Shown: positions 2,681-28,635 of the stretch, in pieces
Layout of the letters: each line of letters starts with the position of its first letter
Position numbering within the stretch: the first letter of the stretch is position 1
Source of the DNA: Domibacillus indicus
Lineage (GTDB): Bacteria > Bacillota > Bacilli > Bacillales > Domibacillaceae
NCBI RefSeq assembly: GCF_023715895.1
Contig: NZ_JAMBOO010000037.1
Coordinates: 1-32,786 of the forward strand
Reading direction: 5' to 3'
Length of the DNA stretch: 32,786 bases
Translations under genes and position numbers: made by a program
Notes under the pieces: generated by a model
The model's database searches: none
Seen by the model: only the letters and a program-made list of their open reading frames with translations
What the model was told of the DNA's origin: nothing

Positions 2681-2870
2681 CTTTTAAGCTGGTTAAACGT
2701 TTGAATTACCCCCAGTTACTCACTACGTTCGTTGAACAAGGGGGATTCCTAAGTACAGGAACCTATCGGCCCCTAATTCATTAGGCTACACCCGTCACTC
2801 CGACGGTTGGCAGTACAAACGACCTTGCAGCAAGTCTCCTGCAGCAAATCAAATTGTGTGACTAAACAAT
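2681..2870 (-). ncRNA. Predicted TnpB guide RNA (omega/reRNA) with guide flank
   Basis: In this family the guide RNA spans the tnpB 3' end and right end, and its guide is the host DNA just beyond the right end. Here the scaffold would run from the tnpB stop region through several hairpins (for example GGAGACTTGCTGC and the GAATCCCCC...GGGGGTAATTCAA terminal hairpin) to 2701. The predicted guide is then minus-strand 2700-2681, ACGTTTAACCAGCTTAAAAG. The scaffold 5' end is an estimate. The assignment follows from known TnpB biology plus the visible terminal hairpin. Confidence 0.55.
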
Positions 2871-4140
2871 GGTTAAATCATGGATATTCCGGGAAGCATT
2901 GATGTCCGCGTTTTCGGAATGACCGCAGGAAACACAAATAAATGCCGCTTGTGTTCGACGGTTTTCTTTCGCTGTATATCCGCATGAATGGCACCTTTGG
3001 GAGGTGTAGCGAGGATCAACCGCAATCACCTTCTTGCCGTACCATTTCGCTTTGTATTCCAGCATCGTGCGGAATTCCGACCAGGAAACTTCGCTGATTG
3101 CTTTGGATAAGGTACGGTTCTTCAGCATGTTTGACACTTTCAGGTCCTCAATCCCGATGACATCGTGGTTTTTGATGATCTCGGTCGTGATTTTCTGCAA
3201 GTAATCAGTCCGTGCGTTCGCAATCTGTTCATGAATACGTGCCACTTTGATACGCTGCTTTTGCACATTTTTCGCTTCTGACAACGGTCTTTTTTGCTGA
3301 ATCGCCAGGTGCTGGCGGCGGGAAAGAATGCGCTGTGCCTTGGCCAGCTTCGCTTCTAGCGCTCTAAAAAACGTTGGATTTTTGTACACTTTCCCGTTCG
3401 AGAGAATGGCAAAGTCTTTTAAGCCAACATCAATCCCAACGGTGGAATCTGTTTTGGGCAGGTCTTTCACCTCTGTTTCAACAAGCAAAGAAACGAAGTA
3501 CTTTCCGGAAGGGCTTTTCCGTACCGTTGCATTTAAAATGCGGCCTTGCACGTCACGGCTGTTCGCAAAACGAACCCAGCCCAGCTTAGGCAGTTTCATG
3601 CGATTGCCTGCAATACTTACCTCTGGAAACTGGTTCTTTTTTTCAATATTCGTTGTGTAAGACTGAACCTTATTTTTCTTACTCTTAAATCGTGGAGCAT
3701 CGTTTTGCTTCTTGAGGAAACGGTCAAATGAGTCCGCAAGATGTTTCAAGGATGATTGCAGGGAATGTGAATCAACTTCCTGCAGCCAGCTTAATTCTTT
3801 CTTTAGCTGAGTAAGCTGGGAAGAACAGGCACTGTACGATAAGCCTTTTCCAGTTGTTTGATAGGTTTCGTTCCATAAGGAAAGAAAGCGGTTGAACACA
3901 AAACGCGAGCAGCCAATGGTTTTCGCAATCAACATTTCTTGTTTTTTGTTTGGATATAAGCGAAAACGGCAGGCTTTGTTCACCAGCATTCTACTCACCT
4001 CGTTTAGTAACTATAATACAAATTATACAAAAAAAAGACAGAACTAAAAACGTTTGCTCCGCAAAACTGACATTCACCCCACCGCTTATTTCTGGGCTGC
4101 GCCCTTGACGAAATGGAAGCGGGGGTACTCTTTCAGTAAA
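2701..4140 (-). mobile_element. tnpB-only IS200/IS605-family element
   Basis: The element consists of one tnpB gene flanked by subterminal hairpins, with no tnpA. The right end is read on the minus strand: a C/G-rich imperfect hairpin (CCCCC...GGGGG, 2706-2745) is followed by TAATTCAA, ending at 2701. The left end lies near 4085-4140. There ACCCCCGCTTCCATTTC pairs imperfectly with GAAATAAGCGGTGGGGT around an inner GGGC/GCCC stem. The exact left boundary and its flanking TAM cannot be fixed by eye. A TTTAC just outside the hairpin (about 4135-4140) is one candidate. Confidence 0.75.
2862..3989 (-). CDS. tnpB: TnpB RNA-guided nuclease (OrfB family)
   Basis: The protein has about 375 residues, a full length for the compact TnpB family. 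It opens with the usual helix-turn-helix/wedge segment (FRLYPNKKQ, then CSRFVFNRFLSLWN). The RuvC catalytic triad is intact: D187 in GIDVGLKD, E281 in IGIEDL and D362 in ADINASRN. The inserted zinc ribbon is complete (C333/C336 in CHSC, C352/C355 in CVSC). I place the start at the ATG at 3989 because GAGGTGAG lies 4 nt before it; a GTG three codons upstream overlaps that site. A TATAAT-containing promoter is visible at about 4025. The nuclease is expected to cut DNA matching the flank-derived guide next to a TAM and so promote retention of the element. No tnpA is present, so mobilisation would need one supplied in trans. Confidence 0.92.
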   Translation of the reverse strand: MLVNKACRFRLYPNKKQEMLIAKTIGCSRFVFNRFLSLWNETYQTTGKGLSYSACSSQLTQLKKELSWLQEVDSHSLQSSLKHLADSFDRFLKKQNDAPRFKSKKNKVQSYTTNIEKKNQFPEVSIAGNRMKLPKLGWVRFANSRDVQGRILNATVRKSPSGKYFVSLLVETEVKDLPKTDSTVGIDVGLKDFAILSNGKVYKNPTFFRALEAKLAKAQRILSRRQHLAIQQKRPLSEAKNVQKQRIKVARIHEQIANARTDYLQKITTEIIKNHDVIGIEDLKVSNMLKNRTLSKAISEVSWSEFRTMLEYKAKWYGKKVIAVDPRYTSQRCHSCGYTAKENRRTQAAFICVSCGHSENADINASRNIHDLTIV

Positions 4141-14717: not shown

Positions 14718-16118
14718 CTATTTCTTTTCAAAAATTGTGCCTTTTTTAAATGCCGAATTTTTAAATGTGAATTTCATCAGCAGCAGGTATGAAAGCCCGC
14801 CGACAATCACGCCGATAATCCAGCCCAAGTCTACTTGCATAAAAGCTGCGCCAGCCCCGATCAGCATGGCCAGGATGGCACACGGATTGAACCCGGCAAA
14901 CTGTCCGTTTTCTTCATACAAATGGGATACATCCACTTTCTGTTTCCGCAAAATATAGTATTCTACCAGCAAAATCGAAGCAATTGGCCCCAAGAAAGCA
15001 GAGTAAATCAAAATGAATGTATTTAAGCCTTGTGCAGATGAATCCTGTACTAAAATCCATGGGCAGGAGCAAAAAGCAAGCAGCCCGGTAATGACGACCG
15101 CTGGCTTGTACTTTAACTTTGTCAGCGATGTAATCACATACGTTGGCGGAATAATATTGGCCACCATGTTGACAGCAACTGCGCCGATTACGATAAATGC
15201 CGATACTGCAACGGTAATATAAGGGTTATCCACCACAACCGCAAAAGCTTTAACCGGATTAGAGATACCGGTAGCAGCCGCGAGCATCGCACCAATCGTC
15301 AGAACAAATCCGTAAGCAACCACAATTGGCGAGAAGTATAAAAAGCCGCGTTTTGCATCACTAATTCCTATTTTCAGCTCCCGTGAATAATCGGCTGCAC
15401 TCAAGAAAATAGCCGCATAGTTTCCGAGGAACACCATAATAAACGCAAAGAACGGCAAGCCCCATGAGCCTTCAGCATGAACCCATTTTTGAGCAATGAC
15501 ATCGCTATGGGACGCCATCAAAACACCAAATACATAAACAAGTCCCAGCATAATCACAACAGATGCCAAAATCTCCATCCACTTAATCGCATGAAAACCA
15601 AACATCGACAGAACAATTTGCAGGAGCTGGATAACTACAAAACAAATGGCTACATTATCAAAAGAGCCGCCCGATACAATTTTAGCAATTTCATTTAAAG
15701 CGGTTCCGCCCGTCCAGCTTTGAAATCCATACCAGACAATCGCCGGTATACCGCGCAGCAAGGAAGAAATCACAGAACCTTTAACCCCAAACGACATTCT
15801 CAGCTGCACCACATATGGAATTCCCGTTCGATATCCGAGCCGGTCATTCAAAGCGAAAAAGATTGAAATAATCCCAATTGCAATCGCTGCGGCCAAAAAA
15901 GTCTGTAAAAGGTTCAACGTCGCCACACCCGCTACAACCAAACTCGCCCCAAGTGTCATATTCCCCAAGTTTACGCCGTCACCAATCCACATAAACATAT
16001 AAGAAAAAGGCCCAACCGTTCGACTTTCTTTTGTTTTCGGTTTTAACGATTCATCGATCCCTGTTGAATAAGGAATTGATACCTCTTCTGTTGTCTGCCT
16101 GACTGCATTTGTTGACAT
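14718..16118 (-). CDS. NCS1-family nucleobase/hydantoin permease
   Basis: The 466-residue protein has 12 hydrophobic spans and NCS1 signatures: FMWIGDGVNLGNMTLGASLV near residue 40, NDRLGYRTGIPYVVQLRMSFGVKG near 90, RGIPAIVWYGFQSWTGGTALN near 125, and FLSAADYSREL near 245. These match the purine-cytosine/allantoin/hydantoin branch (PucI, CodB, Mhp1 relatives); which substrate is moved is not clear. It should act as a cation symporter at the plasma membrane. GAAGG precedes the ATG. The gene stands alone: no allantoinase, hydantoinase or cytosine deaminase is adjacent. The 385 bp upstream (16119-16503) is AT-rich and holds the promoter region only; I see no other feature there. Confidence 0.88.
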   Translation of the reverse strand: MSTNAVRQTTEEVSIPYSTGIDESLKPKTKESRTVGPFSYMFMWIGDGVNLGNMTLGASLVVAGVATLNLLQTFLAAAIAIGIISIFFALNDRLGYRTGIPYVVQLRMSFGVKGSVISSLLRGIPAIVWYGFQSWTGGTALNEIAKIVSGGSFDNVAICFVVIQLLQIVLSMFGFHAIKWMEILASVVIMLGLVYVFGVLMASHSDVIAQKWVHAEGSWGLPFFAFIMVFLGNYAAIFLSAADYSRELKIGISDAKRGFLYFSPIVVAYGFVLTIGAMLAAATGISNPVKAFAVVVDNPYITVAVSAFIVIGAVAVNMVANIIPPTYVITSLTKLKYKPAVVITGLLAFCSCPWILVQDSSAQGLNTFILIYSAFLGPIASILLVEYYILRKQKVDVSHLYEENGQFAGFNPCAILAMLIGAGAAFMQVDLGWIIGVIVGGLSYLLLMKFTFKNSAFKKGTIFEKK

Positions 16119-16503
16119 GATGCCTTCAACTCCATTTCTTTATCTGCATCATCCCTTCATTTAACTGTCTAGATAAAAGAATATTCAGTCAAATAAGGGT
16201 ATAAATTGCTTCTATTTCAACATAGTAAAACTGTTGCTCTTTTCTGATTTTCCTTCTCTTTTTTTATTGTTGAAAGGACAAAAGAAATCAATATTACACG
16301 GAAGATAACTTCTCATTCAATGTCATCAAATGTAACATAAGTAAAGTTTATAAAACTCTGAATAAAAAGTCATTGGGAGATCTGTACATTTTCTTACACT
16401 TTTTTAGATGCTTTGAATAAAACTAAAGGCAAACTCAATAAATAGAAGTGCGAATAAGGGATAATTTGTCGTATAAATGAGGGGTGGGTTCATTGGAAGC
16501 ATA

Positions 16504-16540
16504 AAAAAAGAAGCGGCTATTCAAACAGCCGCTTCTTTTT
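16504..16540 (-). terminator. Terminator of the GTP cyclohydrolase II gene
   Basis: AAGAAGCGGCT pairs with AGCCGCTTCTT around an 8-nt loop, with T7 on the minus strand. It overlaps the stop codon of the gene. Confidence 0.9.
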
Positions 16541-17294
16541 AATCGTTCGGGCAGGTCCCGTCTTCCTGCAGGTGTCCTGAACGTTTGATTTTTGTTTGCA
16601 GGTAGTTCTCGTTAAACTCTGAAATATCGCCCCAAAGCGGTTTACGGCTTGATACCTTTAAGCCAGCATTTTTAAGAGCTTCCAGCTTTTTCGGATTGTT
16701 GGTCATCAAGGTAACCGGTTTGGAGCGCAGCGTTTTAAGCACCAGAATGGCATCGTCGTAATTTCTGGCATCGTCAACAAAACCGAGGCTTTCATTGGCA
16801 TCCACGGTGTCATAGCCATTTTCCTGAAGAATATAAGCCATCGCTTTACTGAATAAGCCAATGCCTCGTCCTTCATGATTAGCCAGATAAAATAAAGCCC
16901 CTGTCCCATGTTTTACAATCATATCCATGGATTGTTTTAATTGATAGCCGCAGTCACAGCGTTTACTGCCAAAGATGTCTCCTGTGTGGCAGATCGAATG
17001 CATGCGAATAATCGCTTCTTCATTGTCCGAAAAGTCGCCGTACACGAGGACGCTGGATTGCTGCAGCTCCGCTAAATTCGCAGAAGACAGCTTTTCAATA
17101 ATCTTCCCATAATCTTCTGTTACTTCCTCATAATTCAGCCAGCAGTACCATTGAAACGCGACGGTTTCCCCGTATAAATTAACAGGCAGTTTAATGGGTC
17201 CGACTAAATAAATCGCTCCTTCTGTTGTTGGAATGAGCTGAATTTTATCTTTTAATACAGAAAGTACCTTTTGATCCAATACTGTTTGTTCCAT
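16539..17294 (-). CDS. ribA: GTP cyclohydrolase II (stand-alone RibA)
   Basis: The 251-residue protein has the catalytic zinc site of GTP cyclohydrolase II: RMHSICHTGDIFGSKRCDCGYQL with three cysteines (C103, C114, C116 approximately). It also has the substrate segment LANHEGRGIGLFSKAMAY and the C-terminal TNNPKKLEALKNAGL. The reaction converts GTP to a diaminopyrimidine, the first step of riboflavin synthesis. In Bacillus the main enzyme is a RibB-RibA fusion; this one is unfused and carries an extra N-terminal segment of about 60 residues, so it may be a second copy. No FMN riboswitch or other rib genes are nearby. The ribosome binding site is AGAAGGAAG. Confidence 0.93.
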   Translation of the reverse strand: MEQTVLDQKVLSVLKDKIQLIPTTEGAIYLVGPIKLPVNLYGETVAFQWYCWLNYEEVTEDYGKIIEKLSSANLAELQQSSVLVYGDFSDNEEAIIRMHSICHTGDIFGSKRCDCGYQLKQSMDMIVKHGTGALFYLANHEGRGIGLFSKAMAYILQENGYDTVDANESLGFVDDARNYDDAILVLKTLRSKPVTLMTNNPKKLEALKNAGLKVSSRKPLWGDISEFNENYLQTKIKRSGHLQEDGTCPND

Positions 17295-17456
17295 GAGTTT
17301 CTTCCTTCTTTCTCATTTGCATTTCACTGCTGTTTATTATAAACCAAAGGAAAACTGGAATGTAAAATAACTTGCTTATACAGCTAAAGCATTATGAATC
17401 AACACTTTATAAATAGTTATCTTTTTTCTGCTTTGTCGTTTCCTTTATTCTCCCCC

Positions 17457-17520
17457 CATATTTTAAAGAAATATGCGAGGGCCATTTACGTTTAGGTCAG
17501 CCGCTCCAAAAAGGACCCTC
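17457..17520 (-). promoter_or_regulatory. Two adjacent hairpins in the region upstream of ribA
   Basis: Read on the minus strand, a larger stem (GAGGGtCC / GGCCCTC, 17513-17520 with 17477-17483) encloses a 29-nt loop. It is followed directly by CATATTT / AAATATG (17457-17475). They lie about 160 nt before the ribA start in a 323-bp gene-free stretch. They do not match the FMN riboswitch. They could be a structured leader, or a late terminator of the upstream gene. Confidence 0.3.
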
Positions 17521-17602
17521 TCACATGGACTCTTTTTCTATTACTATTATATAACTTCGGCCTTCCTCAAGTTACAAATCATTCTTTTCAAATGAGAACA
17601 AA

Positions 17603-17635
17603 GAAAAAAGCAGCCTGTTAAACGGCTGCTTCTTT
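17603..17635 (-). terminator. Terminator overlapping a stop codon
   Basis: AAGCAGCC pairs with GGCTGCTT, then TTTTTCTTTG on the minus strand. The 5' arm encodes the last codons (Glu-Ala-Ala-Val) of the upstream gene. Confidence 0.85.
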
Positions 17636-17920
17636 TACTTCGTATTTTAAAGGTACAATAGCATCTTTCCTATTAGGAGGCTCTTCACCCTGCCTGTAAT
17701 ACGGATCTAACGCTGCAGCTTCTCCAGTCACAAATAGTTTCTCCTGTTCTCCAGACAAAGCGGCTGTATCCGGGTTAATCCCTAACATTTCTAAAATGTT
17801 TTCTGTGTCTTCTTCTTTTAAATAAATTTCCTCAAATACATGTTTTGGGTCGCGTATATCTACAAAGTCTACGACTTCAAACCCCTTTGCCACTAAATCT
17901 TTTACTAAATCTTTCTCCAT
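17618..17920 (-). CDS. Acidic protein of unknown function, 100 residues
   Basis: The start at 17920 is set by AAAGGAG 9 nt upstream of the ATG. The soluble product has no signal peptide or cysteine. It contains VAKGFEVVDFVDIRDPKHVFEEIYLKEEDTENILEMLGI, then an Ala-rich helix and PYYRQGEEPPNRKDAIVPLKYE. I do not recognise the family. The DPKHVFEEIYLKE segment suggests a folded alpha/beta domain. It is monocistronic, between ribA and the small-gene region, with a terminator built into its last codons. Confidence 0.75.
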   Translation of the reverse strand: MEKDLVKDLVAKGFEVVDFVDIRDPKHVFEEIYLKEEDTENILEMLGINPDTAALSGEQEKLFVTGEAAALDPYYRQGEEPPNRKDAIVPLKYEVKEAAV

Positions 17921-18067
17921 CGAACCATCTCCTTTCCTTAACATACATTCGCTAACAGGAGATCATTTCCTGCAAGATGAAATTGTTCGGACGGGATAAA
18001 CCATATGAAAACAAAACAGGAAATGAACTTAAATATCACTTACAATACCCATATTAGCAAGTTTTGA

Positions 18068-23705: not shown

Positions 23706-23741
23706 CAAAAACATGGATCCTTTTCTGGATCCATGTTTTTT
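23706..23741. terminator. Bidirectional terminator between the 53-residue gene and the PTPS gene
   Basis: AAAAACATGGATCC pairs with GGATCCATGTTTTT around a 6-nt loop, with T-tracts on both strands. Confidence 0.92.
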
Positions 23742-23771: not shown

Positions 23772-24590
23772 TTACTTGTTTTCCGGACCATGGTATTCAA
23801 AATAATTTTTTGCAGTCTCCCAAAGTCCTATTTTAGACAAACTTGGCAGAGACGGCTGAAGCAGTTCCCAAAAAACAACTGTCATAACCTCGGCAGTTGG
23901 ATTTAACCCGCTGAATTCTTCTGTATCTAAATTGAGATGCTTATGGTCAAATTTCTGAAGAATTTTCTGATCAACGATTTCATCGAGCTCTGCTAAATTG
24001 ATGATCATCCCTGTTACAGGATCAGCTTCTCCCTCCACCGTTACTTCAAGAATATAGTTATGGCCATGTCCATGAGGGTTATTACATTTTCCAAAAATCA
24101 TTTTATTTTCCTCATCGGATAGCTGATCACTGTGTAATCTATGCGCAGCCGAAAAGTGAAATTTTCTCGTTAATTGAATCATTGACTTTTCCTCCTTTTG
24201 AGAAAGCAAAAATGGATTTTCGTGTAGTTTTATACTTTGGAGTTCGCACTTATCAAACTTTTCATTTAGTTCATTCCATAGATAAGACACTATATTTTCT
24301 GTTGTGGGAATATGCTCTTTAAAGAAAGAATGTTCTCGATTGAGAAATTTGCCATCCAATTCTTCTAAAACTACTCCTTTAACGATACGGTCAATATCTG
24401 TAATGTTCACAACAATTCCTGATTTAGGATTAAGGTTTCCTTTTACAGTAACTTCTAACGTGTAATCATGGCCATGACCATTAGGGTTATTGCACAGTCC
24501 AAAAACTTCTTTATTTTTCTTCTCATCCCAAGTGGGAACATGATAACTATGAGCTGCTGAAAATTCTACTTTTCTTGTTAGCAAAATCAA
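23772..24590 (-). CDS. Tandem (fused) 6-pyruvoyl-tetrahydropterin synthase
   Basis: The 272-residue protein contains two complete PTPS domains (about 1-128 and 137-272). Each has the zinc histidines and the nucleophile cysteine in the C-x5-HGH form: H14, C33, H39, H41 and H150, C169, H175, H177. As I recall, this spacing marks true PTPS-type enzymes, while queuosine QueD has C-x3-HGH. The second domain keeps the catalytic Asp-His pair (D215-H216 in KFDHKHL); the first has D79-G80 (ELDGKFL), so it has probably lost activity. Both keep the pterin-anchoring Glu (HEN, WET). A TTG start follows GGAGGG. Inside the gene AAAGGAGG lies 8 nt before ATG 24182, which starts domain 2, so a free second domain may also be made. 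It lies 112 nt after a GGDEF-EAL gene, with a hairpin (24665-24693) in between. Confidence 0.9.
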   Translation of the reverse strand: MILLTRKVEFSAAHSYHVPTWDEKKNKEVFGLCNNPNGHGHDYTLEVTVKGNLNPKSGIVVNITDIDRIVKGVVLEELDGKFLNREHSFFKEHIPTTENIVSYLWNELNEKFDKCELQSIKLHENPFLLSQKEEKSMIQLTRKFHFSAAHRLHSDQLSDEENKMIFGKCNNPHGHGHNYILEVTVEGEADPVTGMIINLAELDEIVDQKILQKFDHKHLNLDTEEFSGLNPTAEVMTVVFWELLQPSLPSLSKIGLWETAKNYFEYHGPENK

Positions 24591-24702
24591 AGTCTATCCC
24601 TCCTTCGTTCAACCTATTCATTTAAGCACTGAATCTCACTAATTTTATTACCTTTTCTTTTATTGGATAGGAAAATTATTTTCTTATCCTATCTTTTAAA
24701 AA

Positions 24703-27252
24703 TCACTTATGTGTGTTATTGATTTTCATAAACGTCACTTCTTGAATTTCTTTAAATCTCTTGTTAAACTCCTCAACTGACAAAGGCTTACTAAATAAGT
24801 ATCCCTGTACTTCATGGCACTCTTGTTGCTGGAGGAATTTAAGCTGTTCATCTGTCTCTATCCCTTCTGCAATGACCTTAACATGCAAATTATGACCCAT
24901 AGCTATAATTGTTGTAATAATTTTGGTGTCTACAGAAGTATCCTCTATATCGTTCGCAAAGGATTTGTCGATCTTTAAGGTATGGAACGGAAACTTATTC
25001 AGGTAGCTTAACGAAGAGTAACCTGTCCCAAAATCATCTATCGCAATTTTCACACCTAAATCTTTCAAAGCATGGAGCTTATCAATTACATATTGTTCGT
25101 TGTACATGGCAATGCTTTCCGTAATTTCGATCTCCAAATACTTTGGATCCAGGTCCGTTTCATCTAATACTTCTTTCACAAGATCAACTAAGTTAGCTTG
25201 TTGAAACTGCTGAGGAGAAAGATTCACGGATATACCTATTTCATGCAGTCCAGATTTCTGCCATTCTCGAGTTTGTTTACAAGCAGTACGCAGCACCCAT
25301 TCCCCAATCGGTGCGATTAAACCAGTTTCTTCAGCTAACGGAATAAATTCTAAAGGAGAAATCATTCCTATTTGCGGATGAGGCCATCGAATCAAAGCTT
25401 CATTTCCCGTTATGACCCCTGTTTTCAAGTCAACCTTAGGCTGGTAGAACAAAGTAAATTCATCCCGTTCTAATGCCTGGCGCATACCTTTTTCCAAAAA
25501 TGCTCTCTTTTGAATAAGATCATTCATATCATGTGTATAGAACTGATAATTATTTCTTCCATTTTCTTTGGCACGGTACATAGCCATATCAGCATGTTTA
25601 ATGAGATTCTCGATATTATTGCTATCTAGCGGATACATGCTTATCCCTATACTTGACGTAATAAAGAGTTCATTGCCTTCGTAAATAAAAGGTTTCTCTA
25701 ATTTTCTCTGGATAGCTTGTACAAATTCGTTTGCTGTTTCACGATTCGTATTAGGCAGAAGCAAAAGAAATTCATCTCCTCCTATACGCGACATAATTTC
25801 TCCTTTTTTAAGAAGAGAGGAAATGCGGTTCGCAACAGACTTTATCACATAATCACCGGCCGAATGACCGAGCGTATCATTGATAAATTTAAATCTATCC
25901 AAATCAAGAAATAACAATGCAATAGGTTTTTTATCATGTAAGCCAGCTAGTTCTAATGCTTTTTCATGAAATAGCCGCGTATTAGGAAGCCCTGTCAGAA
26001 AATCATAATAAGCATAGTACTGTATTTCTTCACTTTTTCTCTTAAGCTCGTCCGTATAATTTAATAGATTTAATGACATTGAATTTACTTTATTAGAAAG
26101 CAAGCCTAATTCATCATTTCTTTCAATTGCTACTTTTGCCCCGAAATTGCCTTTAGCAATTTCATTCACTTTTTCAAGAATTCGATTTATCGGCTTAACG
26201 ATATATCCAGCTAGAAAGTAGCTAATAACCACTACAAAAATCAAAACAATAATGGAGATAACTAGACTATTTAATAACTGTTTGTTTAATACATCTTGAA
26301 TAACTTTATAGTCGATTACTACTCCAATTACATAAGGATTTTCAGAAGAGACAGGAATAAAACTTTTAAATACTTTTTTATTATTAACCTCACTCTGAAA
26401 ACTAACTAATTTCCCGGTTTCCATTGCTGTTTTAACTGCAGAAACATCCGCCTTTTTCTCTTGGTACTTATAGGTTCCGAATTGAATATCCTTATTCGCT
26501 AGCTCAATAAACTTCTCTCCATTTTGCTCCGTATAAACAGGCGGAGAGCCAAAAGTATTTGGGTTAAATCCAGTAATATTTAATAGCGTATTATTATTGC
26601 TTAAGGTTTTCTGTACAATGGCATCAGGACCAATTTCATCCTCAACATCTGTAATCTGACTGTCTCGCATATAAGGATTAATAATATAATTCGTAGTACC
26701 GTCATAATAATATCCCCACTTATCGACATGATTAGGGTTTGATGCCGAAACATTTATGGGGCCTGACCAATAATTTGGAAGTTTTTGACCTTCGGGAATT
26801 GTAACGCTCCTTTGTTCAAACAATTGCTGAAATGCGGTATACCAGTAACCCCATTCTTTCGTACTTAAATTTCTTTCATGTGGGTCAGAAGACTTCACGC
26901 CCCTAACATCATCTTTTTCTTTTACCATTAAAGTAATATGCGACACGCCTAGTTTTTTGCTCAGTTCAACTAATTGTTCATTCGTTACTTCTTTAATATC
27001 GGGACTAAGTACATTTTGTGCTGCAATAGCTGCAGTACGAAGCTCTTCTCCTTTTTGCTGTTCCAACGAACCTACTGTATACTGAGAATGCTCAATGGCT
27101 ATGCTGATTTCCTGCCCCAAGAGATCCATCTGCTTTTCTTGGTCTTTTATTAACAAATCTCTCGTATAGTAATAGAATAATATATTATTTAAAATTAATA
27201 TTATTGTTACAATTAGAGAAAATATAAAAGATAATTTCTTCTTTAAGGACAA
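24703..27252 (-). CDS. Membrane sensor GGDEF-EAL protein (c-di-GMP synthesis and breakdown)
   Basis: The 849-residue protein has, in order, a membrane span (about 8-29), an extracytoplasmic sensor region (about 30-328), a second span (about 330-350), a HAMP linker (about 350-403), GGDEF and EAL domains. The cyclase site is intact (GGDEF at 491-495, with [15 protein letters not shown] before it). The upstream inhibitory site that is normally RxxD reads KxxE, so product inhibition may be altered. The EAL domain keeps EALIRW (618-623), [28 protein letters not shown] and AEGIE, so phosphodiesterase activity is also expected. The sensor region is about 300 residues, of dCache-like size, with an aromatic cluster ([29 protein letters not shown]); its ligand is unknown. 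A TTG start has AAGGGG upstream. It lies between an SDR gene and a PTPS gene on the same strand. Confidence 0.93.
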
Positions 27253-27319
27253 ACCATCAACCCCTTGTTTAACCCTGCGTATTGAAAGATTTTTATAGTA
27301 TTATTTAGTTTCATTAAGA

Positions 27320-28000
27320 CTATAACACACCTTTTGGCGGAGTCACTGTCATTTCATCAATCCGAACGTGCAGAGGAGTCGTAGCCACGAATGAAGCGAC
27401 ACGTGCTACATCTTGAACATGCAACATGTCTTCAGAAGAAAAACCTTCAACATTTTTCCAGATGTCTGTATATGTGGCACCTAAGTGGATATTAGTAGTG
27501 AAAACGTTATCTTTGTACCATTCTTCTGCTAAAACACTCCCCATCCCGCTGACTGCATGCTTTGAAGCTGCATAAATAGAATTAAAAGGAAGGTTTCTTT
27601 TCGTTGCAACCGAGCTAATATTAATAATCCGCCCTCCTCTTTTCTTTAATAAGGGGAATGCCTGTTGAGTGCAGTGAAAAATACCAAATACATTAGTTTG
27701 AAAAATACCTTCCCATTCCGCAGGATCAAATTCTTCAAAGGCTTTGAATTCACCAACTCCAGCATTATTCACCAGGACGTCTAAGGCACCATACTGCTCA
27801 CTAATATGCTTAAACCCATCTTGTATTTCTTTTTCATTCCGGATATTTATTTGCAATGGAAATAGGTTTTCCACATTGGTCGCTACATTTTTTTCACGGG
27901 TTGTGGCATAGGTAATAAACCCTTTATCTACAAGATCGAGACTAATTGCCTTCCCTATACCTTTTAAACCACCTATAACGATGGCTATCTTTTTTTCCAT
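27320..28000 (-). CDS. Short-chain dehydrogenase/reductase, possibly a pterin (sepiapterin-type) reductase
   Basis: The 226-residue classical SDR has the cofactor motif GGLKGIGKAI (near residue 8), NNAG, the catalytic Ser in ISSVATKRN and the YAASK dyad. An Arg after the second strand (TTREKN) favours NADPH. The length and open C-terminus resemble sepiapterin and benzil reductases, but the classical SDR fold alone does not fix the substrate. The idea of a pterin substrate comes mainly from the PTPS gene two genes downstream. I choose the ATG at 28000, with AGAGGT 8 nt upstream, over an earlier GTG that precedes the ribosome binding site. It is 67 nt ahead of the GGDEF-EAL gene and is likely the first gene of that unit. 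Confidence 0.87.
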   Translation of the reverse strand: MEKKIAIVIGGLKGIGKAISLDLVDKGFITYATTREKNVATNVENLFPLQINIRNEKEIQDGFKHISEQYGALDVLVNNAGVGEFKAFEEFDPAEWEGIFQTNVFGIFHCTQQAFPLLKKRGGRIINISSVATKRNLPFNSIYAASKHAVSGMGSVLAEEWYKDNVFTTNIHLGATYTDIWKNVEGFSSEDMLHVQDVARVASFVATTPLHVRIDEMTVTPPKGVL

Positions 28001-28120
28001 TTTTGTACCTCTTTTCACCGGGTATTTTGTTAAGGATGTAAAAGAGAAAGTTTATTCCCTTCATTTATCTTAAAATAAAACCTAAGGATTTAATTCCAAA
28101 TTTTAACTAAAACAAACTAA

Positions 28121-28149
28121 CTTATAGCTCTTTAATTATTCGACAAAAA
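28121..28149 (-). promoter_or_regulatory. Candidate SDR-operon promoter overlapping a perfect Spo0A box
   Basis: TTTGTCGAA (minus strand, 28139-28147) is a perfect 9-of-9 Spo0A box. TATAAG (28121-28126) has a poor -35 (TTTTTG) at 17 bp, and the box covers that position. The predicted start is near 28114, giving a leader of about 110 nt. The rest of the 600-bp stretch 28001-28635 is AT-rich and shows no gene I can support. Confidence 0.4.
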
Positions 28150-28635
28150 CCGCTTATTTGAAGTATAACAGATTCAAAAGTCTTAGTACTATAGCAAATG
28201 ATTTAGACATTTTAATTTTCGGCTTATTGTTAACCTCATTAAAGAAAAAGAACTAAACAACGATCCATATTTCTTTTTTATTTGTTTTTACTTTTCTATA
28301 AGAAGCTTTATTCTGCATATCTTAAGCCGTTCACAACATCCATCCGTACATGTTTGTAGAGACATCAGTATTTAAAACTTTCATCCGTACTTTTATCTCC
28401 TAAGCACTGTTTATATTTTTATAATCCATCTTGTCCACTCCATATGGTCATACAGGAACCCTTGCTTGGGATCGATTTATTGTTTTTTATTTTGTTCTCT
28501 TTAATAATTCAGAGCTAGTCCTCTTTTTATCTGCATACACATAAAGAAACGGGATAATCGATTTGGCCGACTTGATCCAGCTACAGAAAGAACAGACATG
28601 AAAATGACGCAGGTAGAAGAGGTGGTGAAAACAAA

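Follow-up and report, generated by a model that had tools for sequence, protein, structure and literature searches.

A candidate pterin-linked signalling cassette with a predicted dCache-like GGDEF-EAL receptor in Domibacillus indicus and other Bacillota

Introduction

Passages of a recent paper describe how pterins control a GGDEF-EAL protein in Agrobacterium, how the outer domain of this Pru pathway occurs on DcpA as well as on DTB kinase forms, and how pteridine reductases are marked by the motif TGX3RXG (PMC13259868). The same passages describe pterin control of cyclic di-GMP (c-di-GMP) for Proteobacteria only, and the words Bacillus, Firmicutes, Bacillota and Gram-positive are absent from the main text of the paper (PMC13259868). 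Here we analyse a stretch of 32,786 nucleotides from Domibacillus indicus (contig NZ_JAMBOO010000037.1; hereafter the window), in which genes for a short-chain dehydrogenase/reductase (SDR), a membrane GGDEF-EAL protein and a tandem 6-pyruvoyl-tetrahydropterin synthase (PTPS) lie in a row on the minus strand. To judge from gene content, this trio represents one version of a family of putative pterin-linked signalling cassettes found in Bacillota, and we assign a probability of roughly 45 % to the reading that a locally made tetrahydropterin, used directly or after modification, is the ligand of a dCache-like receptor that sets c-di-GMP.

Tetrahydrobiopterin synthesis uses GTP cyclohydrolase I (FolE), PTPS-II and sepiapterin reductase, and RsbQ-RsbP of Bacillus subtilis combines an alpha/beta-hydrolase with a PAS sensor. 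Acylated pterins, the pepteridines, come from a pterin cluster of Photorhabdus resembling a nonribosomal peptide synthetase cluster, as reported in parts of PMC5384830. Among the matches listed by our literature search, whose coverage leaves out most subscription papers and preprints, no title announces a published Bacillota module of the kind described below.

Results and Discussion

The initial annotation had placed the three open reading frames (ORFs) on the minus strand with a gap of 67 bp between SDR and receptor and one of 112 bp between receptor and PTPS, and both the positions and the gaps are borne out; ORF starts were assigned mechanically. The SDR gene comes first (27320..28000, minus strand), as judged from its ORF, Pfam adh_short and PDB matches, and encodes 226 residues from an ATG at 28000 behind AGAGGT, the longest ORF starting from a GTG at 28018. 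It is followed by the receptor gene (24703..27252, minus strand; start TTG at 27252, end at 24703), whose product of 849 residues is built, by Pfam and by transmembrane (TM) segments judged from sequence, as TM-outer domain-TM-HAMP-GGDEF-EAL. The tandem PTPS-II gene (23772..24590, minus strand; 272 residues) starts with a TTG at 24590 behind AAGGAGGG, ends at 23772 and is recognised by two PF01242 stretches and the CxxxxxHGH motif. As for separate terminators, which had been named as an observation that would speak against a common unit, a sequence scan reported no terminator-like site on the minus strand in either gap; a palindromic terminator-like stem-loop lies 3′ of the PTPS gene (23707..23740), which the scan lists for the plus strand and which has a T run on the minus strand as well. 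Promoter-like matches in the region were not above chance, with 16 found and 18.8 expected.

The set recurs well beyond this strain (loci and genomes are cited below by our labels L and G). Other Domibacillus, Bacillus wudalianchiensis, Paenibacillus and a record labelled Metabacillus fastidiosus also combine SDR, GGDEF-EAL and tandem PTPS genes, so the suspicion that the gene order might be unique to the strain can be laid aside, and because of this recurrence across genera the gene set is more than chance. Tandem PTPS beside a dCache-GGDEF-EAL receptor, here termed class A, was found at 14 distinct loci, counted by distinct receptors and, like all class counts, irrespective of relatedness, in Domibacillus, Bacillus, Paenibacillus and relatives. 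An adjacent SDR is present at 12 of them (12 distinct) and absent at L066 and L106. Domibacillus and Bacillus types show the order SDR-receptor-PTPS, L073 and the Paenibacillus types the order SDR-PTPS-receptor, with gaps mostly below 135 bp and one of 233 bp. At two class A loci (L032 in G016, L033 in G020) the set is followed by an RsbQ-like alpha/beta-hydrolase gene (Abhydrolase_1) and by a gene for a GGDEF protein whose PAS-like N terminus falls just below the Pfam cut-off, and a DNA methylase-like gene lies immediately 5′ of the SDR, with an N6_N4_Mtase match in L032.

A commoner operon type, class B, reads FolE-PTPS-SDR-HATPase-hydrolase-(acyl carrier protein (ACP)-AMP ligase)-receptor-STAS-SpoIIE-type phosphatase-FapA, with L085 and L105 lacking a FolE nearby. 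Its receptor is of the HAMP type, carries an outer domain homologous to that of the window and adjoins an RsbU/RsbV/RsbW-like switch. Class C comprises two loci (L060 and L061, the latter with a named copy, L108, in Bacillus timonensis) with genes for a GGDEF-EAL protein, PTPS, a hydrolase, a TM-GGDEF protein, a PilZ-like protein (E 4e-4, just below the Pfam cut-off) and an SDR; we considered the class C GGDEF-EAL protein as a PAS protein, and Pfam found no PAS domain in it. Genes of classes B and C were labelled by BLAST against a single reference in each case, and the families were verified on one member. At three further loci (L222, L223 and L224, the first two from the same genus) a second FolE comes immediately after a receptor-GGDEF-EAL gene, with no PTPS there, in genomes that carry another FolE elsewhere; a pyridine nucleotide-disulphide oxidoreductase-like gene lies close behind, the FolE and reductase families being checked for L222 only. 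The proposed pterin/c-di-GMP link therefore stands in so far as such cassettes recur in Bacillota, whereas the supposition that the last two pterin enzymes had been assembled in this way uniquely here does not, since the sister operon joins FolE-PTPS-SDR to a receptor and a second FolE adjoins some PTPS-less receptors.

At E ≤ 1e-30, tandem PTPS was detected in 9 of 24 family genomes, in 22 of 397 sampled across the order and in 1 of 398 sampled across the phylum, the last being the window's own. In the sample of the order all 22 tandem-PTPS genomes carry the receptor outer domain, as compared with 34 of the other 375 (Fisher p 3e-21, a value that ignores relatedness and physical linkage), and the receptor is present at 22 of 24 tandem-PTPS places. 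The outer domain itself occurs in 56 of the 397 genomes at 61 places, a few of them partial. A scan of named genomes, of which the best 80 of 580 loci were taken, gave 33 loci in Bacillota (L077-L109), 30 of them with the receptor (not L092, L098 and L108), and 47 elsewhere, mostly in metagenome-assembled genomes (MAGs) of Poribacteria, Latescibacterota, Armatimonadota and Planctomycetota. When recounted without the non-overlap filter, a PTPS frame is present at 33/33 Bacillota and 46/47 non-Bacillota loci. The receptor model found no match in the 47 non-Bacillota loci, several of which are cut short by contig ends, and FolE lies within 2.5 kb of PTPS at 35 of them and together with an SDR nearby at 29; the enzyme set is therefore wider than its receptor link. 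Two neighbours of the Poribacteria-type locus L119, of 282 and 96 residues, were considered as hydroxylase and dehydratase; Pfam returned Rhodanese and nothing for them, respectively, and this assignment was abandoned.

In a receptor tree rooted at the midpoint, from which identical rows and stretches below 250 residues were excluded, the 14 GGDEF-EAL receptors with pterin linkage group in a single clade (99/91) that is sister to 10 unlinked ones (100/95), and 31 linked class B receptors are placed elsewhere, with three unlinked receptors near or among them. Pterin linkage therefore occurs in two separate parts of the receptor family. That unrelated genes are simply kept together by descent is hardly credible: flanks are common to related genomes and the counts are uncorrected for phylogeny, but class A comes in two gene orders, the contexts are several, and the linked genes are spread over two separate regions of the receptor tree and two or more of the PTPS tree (90 genes kept, each having a single frame that covers 230 or more aligned residues; L066, L106 and L156 are of unsure placement owing to long branches). 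At the level of gene neighbourhood the link between enzymes and receptor is firm and a pterin a plausible receptor ligand; since the pairing recurs in related bacteria, the cells may use a pterin, a molecule akin to a vitamin, as a signal.

Both halves of the tandem PTPS carry the C-x5-HGH motif (CNNPNGHGH and CNNPHGHGH), as had been proposed, and thereby conform to PTPS-II, which in the available sections of PMC5041015 is defined by CxxxxxHGH, with CxxxHGH defining QueD and ExxHGH PTPS-III. A queuosine-type QueD identity was rejected on the ground that both halves show C-x5-HGH and not C-x3-HGH; the NCBIfam QueD model nonetheless scores above its cut-off on the whole protein (124.2 versus 89.25 bits, in two stretches). 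The folate-type PTPS-III identity was set aside by motif only (ExxHGH, in the same sections of PMC5041015). A second, single-domain PTPS-family match elsewhere in the window genome (contig C93) likewise entered the rejection of QueD. Against the solved PTPS 1b66 the best alignment is obtained via the C-terminal half (E 3e-37), the N-terminal half alone reaching 9e-29. As a residue checklist we used the catalytic and zinc residues of rat PTPS. By alignment to solved PTPS the N-terminal half (24186..24590, minus strand) has the zinc His, Cys33 and the Glu, with Gly80 in place of the catalytic His, and because it reads Asp-Gly where solved PTPS reads Asp-His, the two halves are not equivalent. 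The C-terminal half (23787..24182, minus strand) has the full catalytic set H150, C169, H175, H177, D215, H216 and E258. This division is general in Bacillota, where all checked catalytic and zinc positions of the C-terminal half are kept in 49/49 sequences and the catalytic His of the N-terminal half is missing from 49/49 (Gly in 48, Ser in 1). Among the non-Bacillota relatives (L110-L156) the N-terminal half usually lacks the Cys (35/41) and the C-terminal His is replaced by Tyr in 20/41; unlike in Bacillota these losses look complementary, and active sites mixed across the halves are conceivable.

A possible internal translation start precedes the C-terminal half (24180..24202, minus strand), consisting of AAAAGGAGG and then an ATG at 24182. 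Of 49 Bacillota genes, 48 have a start codon as the first codon of this half: 38 use ATG, all six Leu codons are TTG and all four Val codons are GTG, as compared with 20% and 23% elsewhere in the same genes. A Shine-Dalgarno match of at least 5 bases precedes this codon in 35/48 Bacillota genes versus 37/629 other start-like codons, the same test giving 6/38 versus 26/648 background codons in non-Bacillota genes. Because start codon and Shine-Dalgarno match are conserved in Bacillota, the catalytic half may also be translated alone there; part of this pattern may stem from the Glu/Lys-rich linker that the purine-rich stretch likewise encodes. In L034 the C-terminal half seems to have overwritten part of the N-terminal half (RLH..LTDEENKEIFGRCNN), where the motif is two residues shorter; this looks like gene conversion inside the tandem gene.

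The assignment of the SDR is mixed. It belongs to Pfam adh_short (E 7e-49) and has the glycine motif IGGLKGIG, with Gly at the Arg position of pteridine reductases. For its C-terminal 173 residues the sepiapterin reductase of Chlorobium tepidum (2bd0) is the second-best PDB match (E 1.5e-20), and the two share a GA.YT..W stretch; for the whole protein 2bd0 is only the 11th match, behind mostly FabG-type enzymes. In an SDR tree the class A and class C enzymes form one lineage (support 0.997) and the class B enzymes form another together with 24 of 27 non-Bacillota SDRs (support 1.0), the joint between the two being weakly supported; both are set apart from 21 of 26 SDRs of the window genome, the other 5 falling on the class B side. 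This tree omits two unrelated SDRs (those of L081 and L134), L179, which repeats the window SDR, and own-genome frames of at least 330 residues (26/29 kept). A grouping of the SDR with non-pterin reductases, which the initial annotation had named as a possible objection, thus finds support in the missing Arg and in a TIGR01500 score of 24 bits, whereas the second-best match to 2bd0 and the clustering with SDRs of other tandem-PTPS loci speak for a pterin enzyme, and we call it sepiapterin-reductase-like.

The gene contexts and the SDR lineages bear on a further reading, in which the signal is a modified, for instance acylated, pterin that the hydrolases and the AMP ligase and ACP of the sister operons tailor, the SDR acting on a group other than the pyruvoyl side chain. 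ACP and AMP-ligase genes sit between hydrolase and receptor in L036 and many other class B loci and suggest an acyl or aminoacyl modification step. Several kinds of alpha/beta-hydrolase recur beside the sets, the SDRs belong to more than one lineage, and acylated pepteridines are known from Photorhabdus according to parts of PMC5384830, but the window set has no ligase, carrier protein or hydrolase and within class A only L032 and L033 have the adjacent RsbQ-like hydrolase, so that we hold this reading to be quite unlikely.

The membrane receptor has intact cyclase and phosphodiesterase motifs, as proposed, with a HAMP domain (residues 346-396; 26065..26217, minus strand; PF00672), a GGDEF diguanylate cyclase domain (residues 414-568; 25549..26013, minus strand; PF00990) reading RIGGDEF and an EAL phosphodiesterase domain (residues 590-823; 24784..25485, minus strand; PF00563) reading EALIRW. 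RxxD is the inhibitory site ahead of GGDEF; in the window receptor this position reads KKGE, and product inhibition is therefore doubtful. The expected outer domain of about 300 residues is located between the TM segments at residues 28-330 (26263..27171, minus strand). Pfam Cache families gave no match at E 0.01 in the window receptor, where one match to an unrelated family fell below the cut-off, and none in the one class B receptor checked. The sensor-domain model that had been called for was made with AlphaFold2 and is two-lobed (pLDDT 90.9, pTM 0.77), with two Cache/PAS-like lobes on a long N-terminal helix, as expected of a dCache domain. By Foldseek and VIA the domain groups with Cache sensors (MkcA, Tlp3, Mlp24, WalK, PctD, PscC, TlpQ and a uracil receptor); by Foldseek, Chlamydia RsbU 6mab ranks 6th and uric-acid-bound McpH 8th, with many amino-acid sensors ranking similarly. 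Because the Foldseek TM-scores are low, about 0.2-0.4, we prefer the safe wording dCache-like, and the outer domain is predicted to be an undescribed dCache-like domain without a Pfam family. No ligand class could be read from the VIA and Foldseek lists, which include sensors of amino acids, choline, uric acid and uracil without one standing out. Class A and class B receptors align across the outer domain, the identity of class B to the window's being 22-25%. In a plasmid search with the receptor the 8 matches listed start only at residue 351, and none of the 5000 records retained covers 80% of the query. At two places (L219 and L225) the outer domain sits on PAS histidine kinases without a PTPS link, a third output type of the receptor family.

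From the gene set, its conservation, the enzyme motifs and the predicted fold we infer product, export, binding and direction of control as follows. Housekeeping GTP cyclohydrolase I would supply dihydroneopterin triphosphate, which PTPS would turn into 6-pyruvoyl-tetrahydropterin and the SDR would reduce to a biopterin-type tetrahydropterin. This compound or a derivative would exit the cell and bind the receptor outer domain directly, without a carrier of the PruR type, and binding would shift the GGDEF/EAL balance via the HAMP domain and thereby the c-di-GMP level. In the class B sister operon, a pterin set and an outer domain of this kind would instead act on the RsbU/RsbV/RsbW-like partner switch.

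Several observations weigh against this scheme. No dedicated FolE belongs to the window set; the window genome (5.08 Mb) has one FolE, and no pterin exporter or pterin-binding carrier was seen in the gene set. On TIGR01500, the sepiapterin reductase model, the window SDR scores 24.3 bits against a cut-off of 206.55, ranking 23rd among the 30 matches in its own genome; the model is also above its cut-off in 0/14 control genomes. The linked cyclases of class C are without a dCache domain, both genomes carrying a dCache receptor elsewhere. As many as 39 of the 61 receptor-domain places lie away from a tandem-PTPS locus. Among the 20 of these 39 that were fetched and inspected, 3 have an adjoining FolE, 6 have partner-switch genes without a PTPS or FolE match and 2 are the PAS histidine kinases named above; the remaining ones have no PTPS or FolE match, and at L218, L220 and L224 an alpha/beta-hydrolase gene lies just upstream of the receptor. 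Residues conserved family-wide, such as S130, K178, Y181, Y182 and D269, are common to linked and unlinked receptors, and residues specific to both linked groups number 4 versus 1-2 in control pairings, or 9 versus 3-4 at looser cut-offs. We accordingly dropped such linked-specific residues as a signal of pterin binding, the excess being weak and barely above the control pairings.

These last points favour the main competitor, which runs in the reverse direction: the receptor would respond to an external cue of an unrelated kind and, through c-di-GMP or the phosphatase, control the pterin enzymes, the pterin being the output as a redox protectant, pigment or cofactor. It would account for receptor copies without pterin genes and for outer-domain residues that are conserved identically with or without linkage, and Cache folds bind many ligands. 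What it leaves unexplained, unless the target is always a pterin, is the presence of different pterin enzymes (tandem PTPS and SDR, or a second FolE) beside one receptor family in separate lineages, and we regard a receptor controlling pterin output as a doubtful though serious alternative.

FolE between the SpoIVA and heptaprenyl diphosphate synthase genes is in its usual housekeeping place, and this is where the single FolE of the window genome is located. Of the 8 class A genomes searched, six have a single FolE, and the other two, G008 and G605, carry an additional one within their class B operons. A pterin could also serve as cofactor of nitric oxide synthase (NOS) or, in genomes that encode such an enzyme, of an aromatic amino acid hydroxylase, with the c-di-GMP gene merely co-transcribed. 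A NOS gene is indeed present in the window genome and in all 8 class A genomes searched, and the hydroxylase family Biopterin_H occurs in 3 of 25 genomes with a cassette (G466 and G510 of class C, and G605) and in 0 of 14 without, so that all three such genomes among the 39 carry one. NOS does not, however, track the cassette, being found in 16 of 25 genomes with it and in 11 of 14 without it (G010 of the 11 in broken frames), with G006, G011 and G517 among those that carry the cassette but no NOS, and this reading leaves the receptor unexplained. A hydroxylase cofactor role in the window host was rejected, its genome having no Biopterin_H match, and overall we consider the cofactor reading very improbable.

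The locus shows a patchwork of DNA identity between close relatives. We scanned the window as 81 bins of 400 bp and counted those aligned over at least 250 bases, which gave a median identity of 96.8% over 69 bins to the same-species genome G061 and of 95.5% over 71 bins to G008. Against G061, bin and finer scans outline a block (26001..28400) in which the upstream region, the SDR and the sensor are about 70-89% identical, with flanks mostly at 94-98%. Five consecutive bins of it (26001-28000, sensor and SDR) lie at 74-80%, and the low stretch stops near the start of the GGDEF domain, the GGDEF-EAL and PTPS bins being at 94-98%. Against G008 the replaced block spans about 23900-27400 and comprises sensor, GGDEF-EAL and most of PTPS, with the SDR protein 97% and the sensor 79% identical. 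The sensor is inside the block in both comparisons, and only single bins elsewhere fall below 88% (8801 and 31201 for G061; 2401 and 31601 for G008). Such sharp blocks of 70-80% DNA identity suggest allele swapping by recombination.

Of the known patterns considered, the nearest to this sensor replacement is the ComQXPA polymorphism of B. subtilis, where, as stated in portions of PMC4408185, comQ is 65-70% identical at the nucleotide level between clusters. A Gram-positive pterin pheromone could be imagined along these lines, in which each strain releases a tetrahydropterin made by its PTPS and SDR and perceives it through a rapidly changing dCache receptor, with c-di-GMP (class A) or a phosphatase switch (class B) as output, and in which recombination exchanges receptor alleles between strains as with ComQXPA pherotypes; we consider this unlikely. 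SDR and receptor as a strict pherotype pair are not supported, because the pairwise identities of SDR and sensor scarcely co-vary (r 0.25 across 7 loci), as the SDR and sensor values for G008 illustrate.

Elsewhere in the window, the genes at 14718-17944 (an NCS1 permease and a GTP cyclohydrolase II-like protein) were considered as members of the set and rejected, lying more than 5 kb downstream past the terminator-like stem and other genes. At 2862-3998 on the minus strand lies a gene for an IS605 OrfB/TnpB-type transposase, with OrfB_IS605 and Cas12f1-like TNB matches; the bins 2801-3601 around it are unmatched in the fetched parts of G061 or G008, which resembles a recent insertion.

Comparison with Known Systems

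If Bacillota do possess a cassette that combines enzymes of its own with an undescribed receptor domain and at least two outputs, this would point to repeated origins of pterin signalling. Such a receptor, needing no carrier, would lend itself to ligand-binding and structural studies, and a role would be found for tandem PTPS genes that automatic models name QueD.

With tetrahydrobiopterin synthesis the locus shares the PTPS-II motif and a full catalytic set in one half, and FolE-PTPS-SDR neighbours are found in class B and in Poribacteria-type MAGs. It differs in its tandem PTPS with a degenerate half, a set without FolE, an SDR that is not a clear sepiapterin reductase and the receptor joined to it. 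The pepteridine cluster of Photorhabdus luminescens likewise has FolE, PTPS and reductase homologues with carrier-protein chemistry and affects regulation, but has no membrane receptor or c-di-GMP gene in its set, as far as the sections available of PMC5384830 describe it. RsbU/RsbV/RsbW partner switching with Cache sensors, as in Chlamydia RsbU (6mab), finds its likeness in class B, where a SpoIIE-type phosphatase, STAS and HATPase lie beside a dCache-like receptor; the output of the window receptor is GGDEF-EAL and not a phosphatase. G016 and G020 resemble RsbQ-RsbP in having an RsbQ-like hydrolase and, after it, a GGDEF gene that opens with a PAS-like stretch, although the pair is absent from the window and its output is GGDEF instead of a phosphatase.

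The closest parallel is PruA-PruR-DcpA. In both systems a pterin enzyme is tied to a membrane GGDEF-EAL protein, the receptor here having both GGDEF and EAL, and as with DcpA and DTB one outer domain serves several outputs, here GGDEF-EAL, HAMP-type phosphatase-switch proteins and two PTPS-less histidine kinases. The differences are equally clear: the window SDR is without the Arg of TGX3RXG (IGGLKGIG), no gene for PruR, a small SUOX-like secreted protein, lies in the window set (the one PF00174 match of the genome being elsewhere, in a 364-codon frame), and the outer domain of DcpA has about 190 residues with WX7E whereas that described here has about 300 and is dCache-like. WX7E occurs 0 times in residues 1-345 of the window receptor and in 1 of 31 rows of the receptor alignment A3. 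PTPS is moreover present in the set here, and the hosts are Gram-positive. Lacking PruR, WX7E and a pteridine-reductase-type Arg, the window set was rejected as a member of the Pru system; by analogy it may work like the Pru/DcpA pathway without being a member of it.

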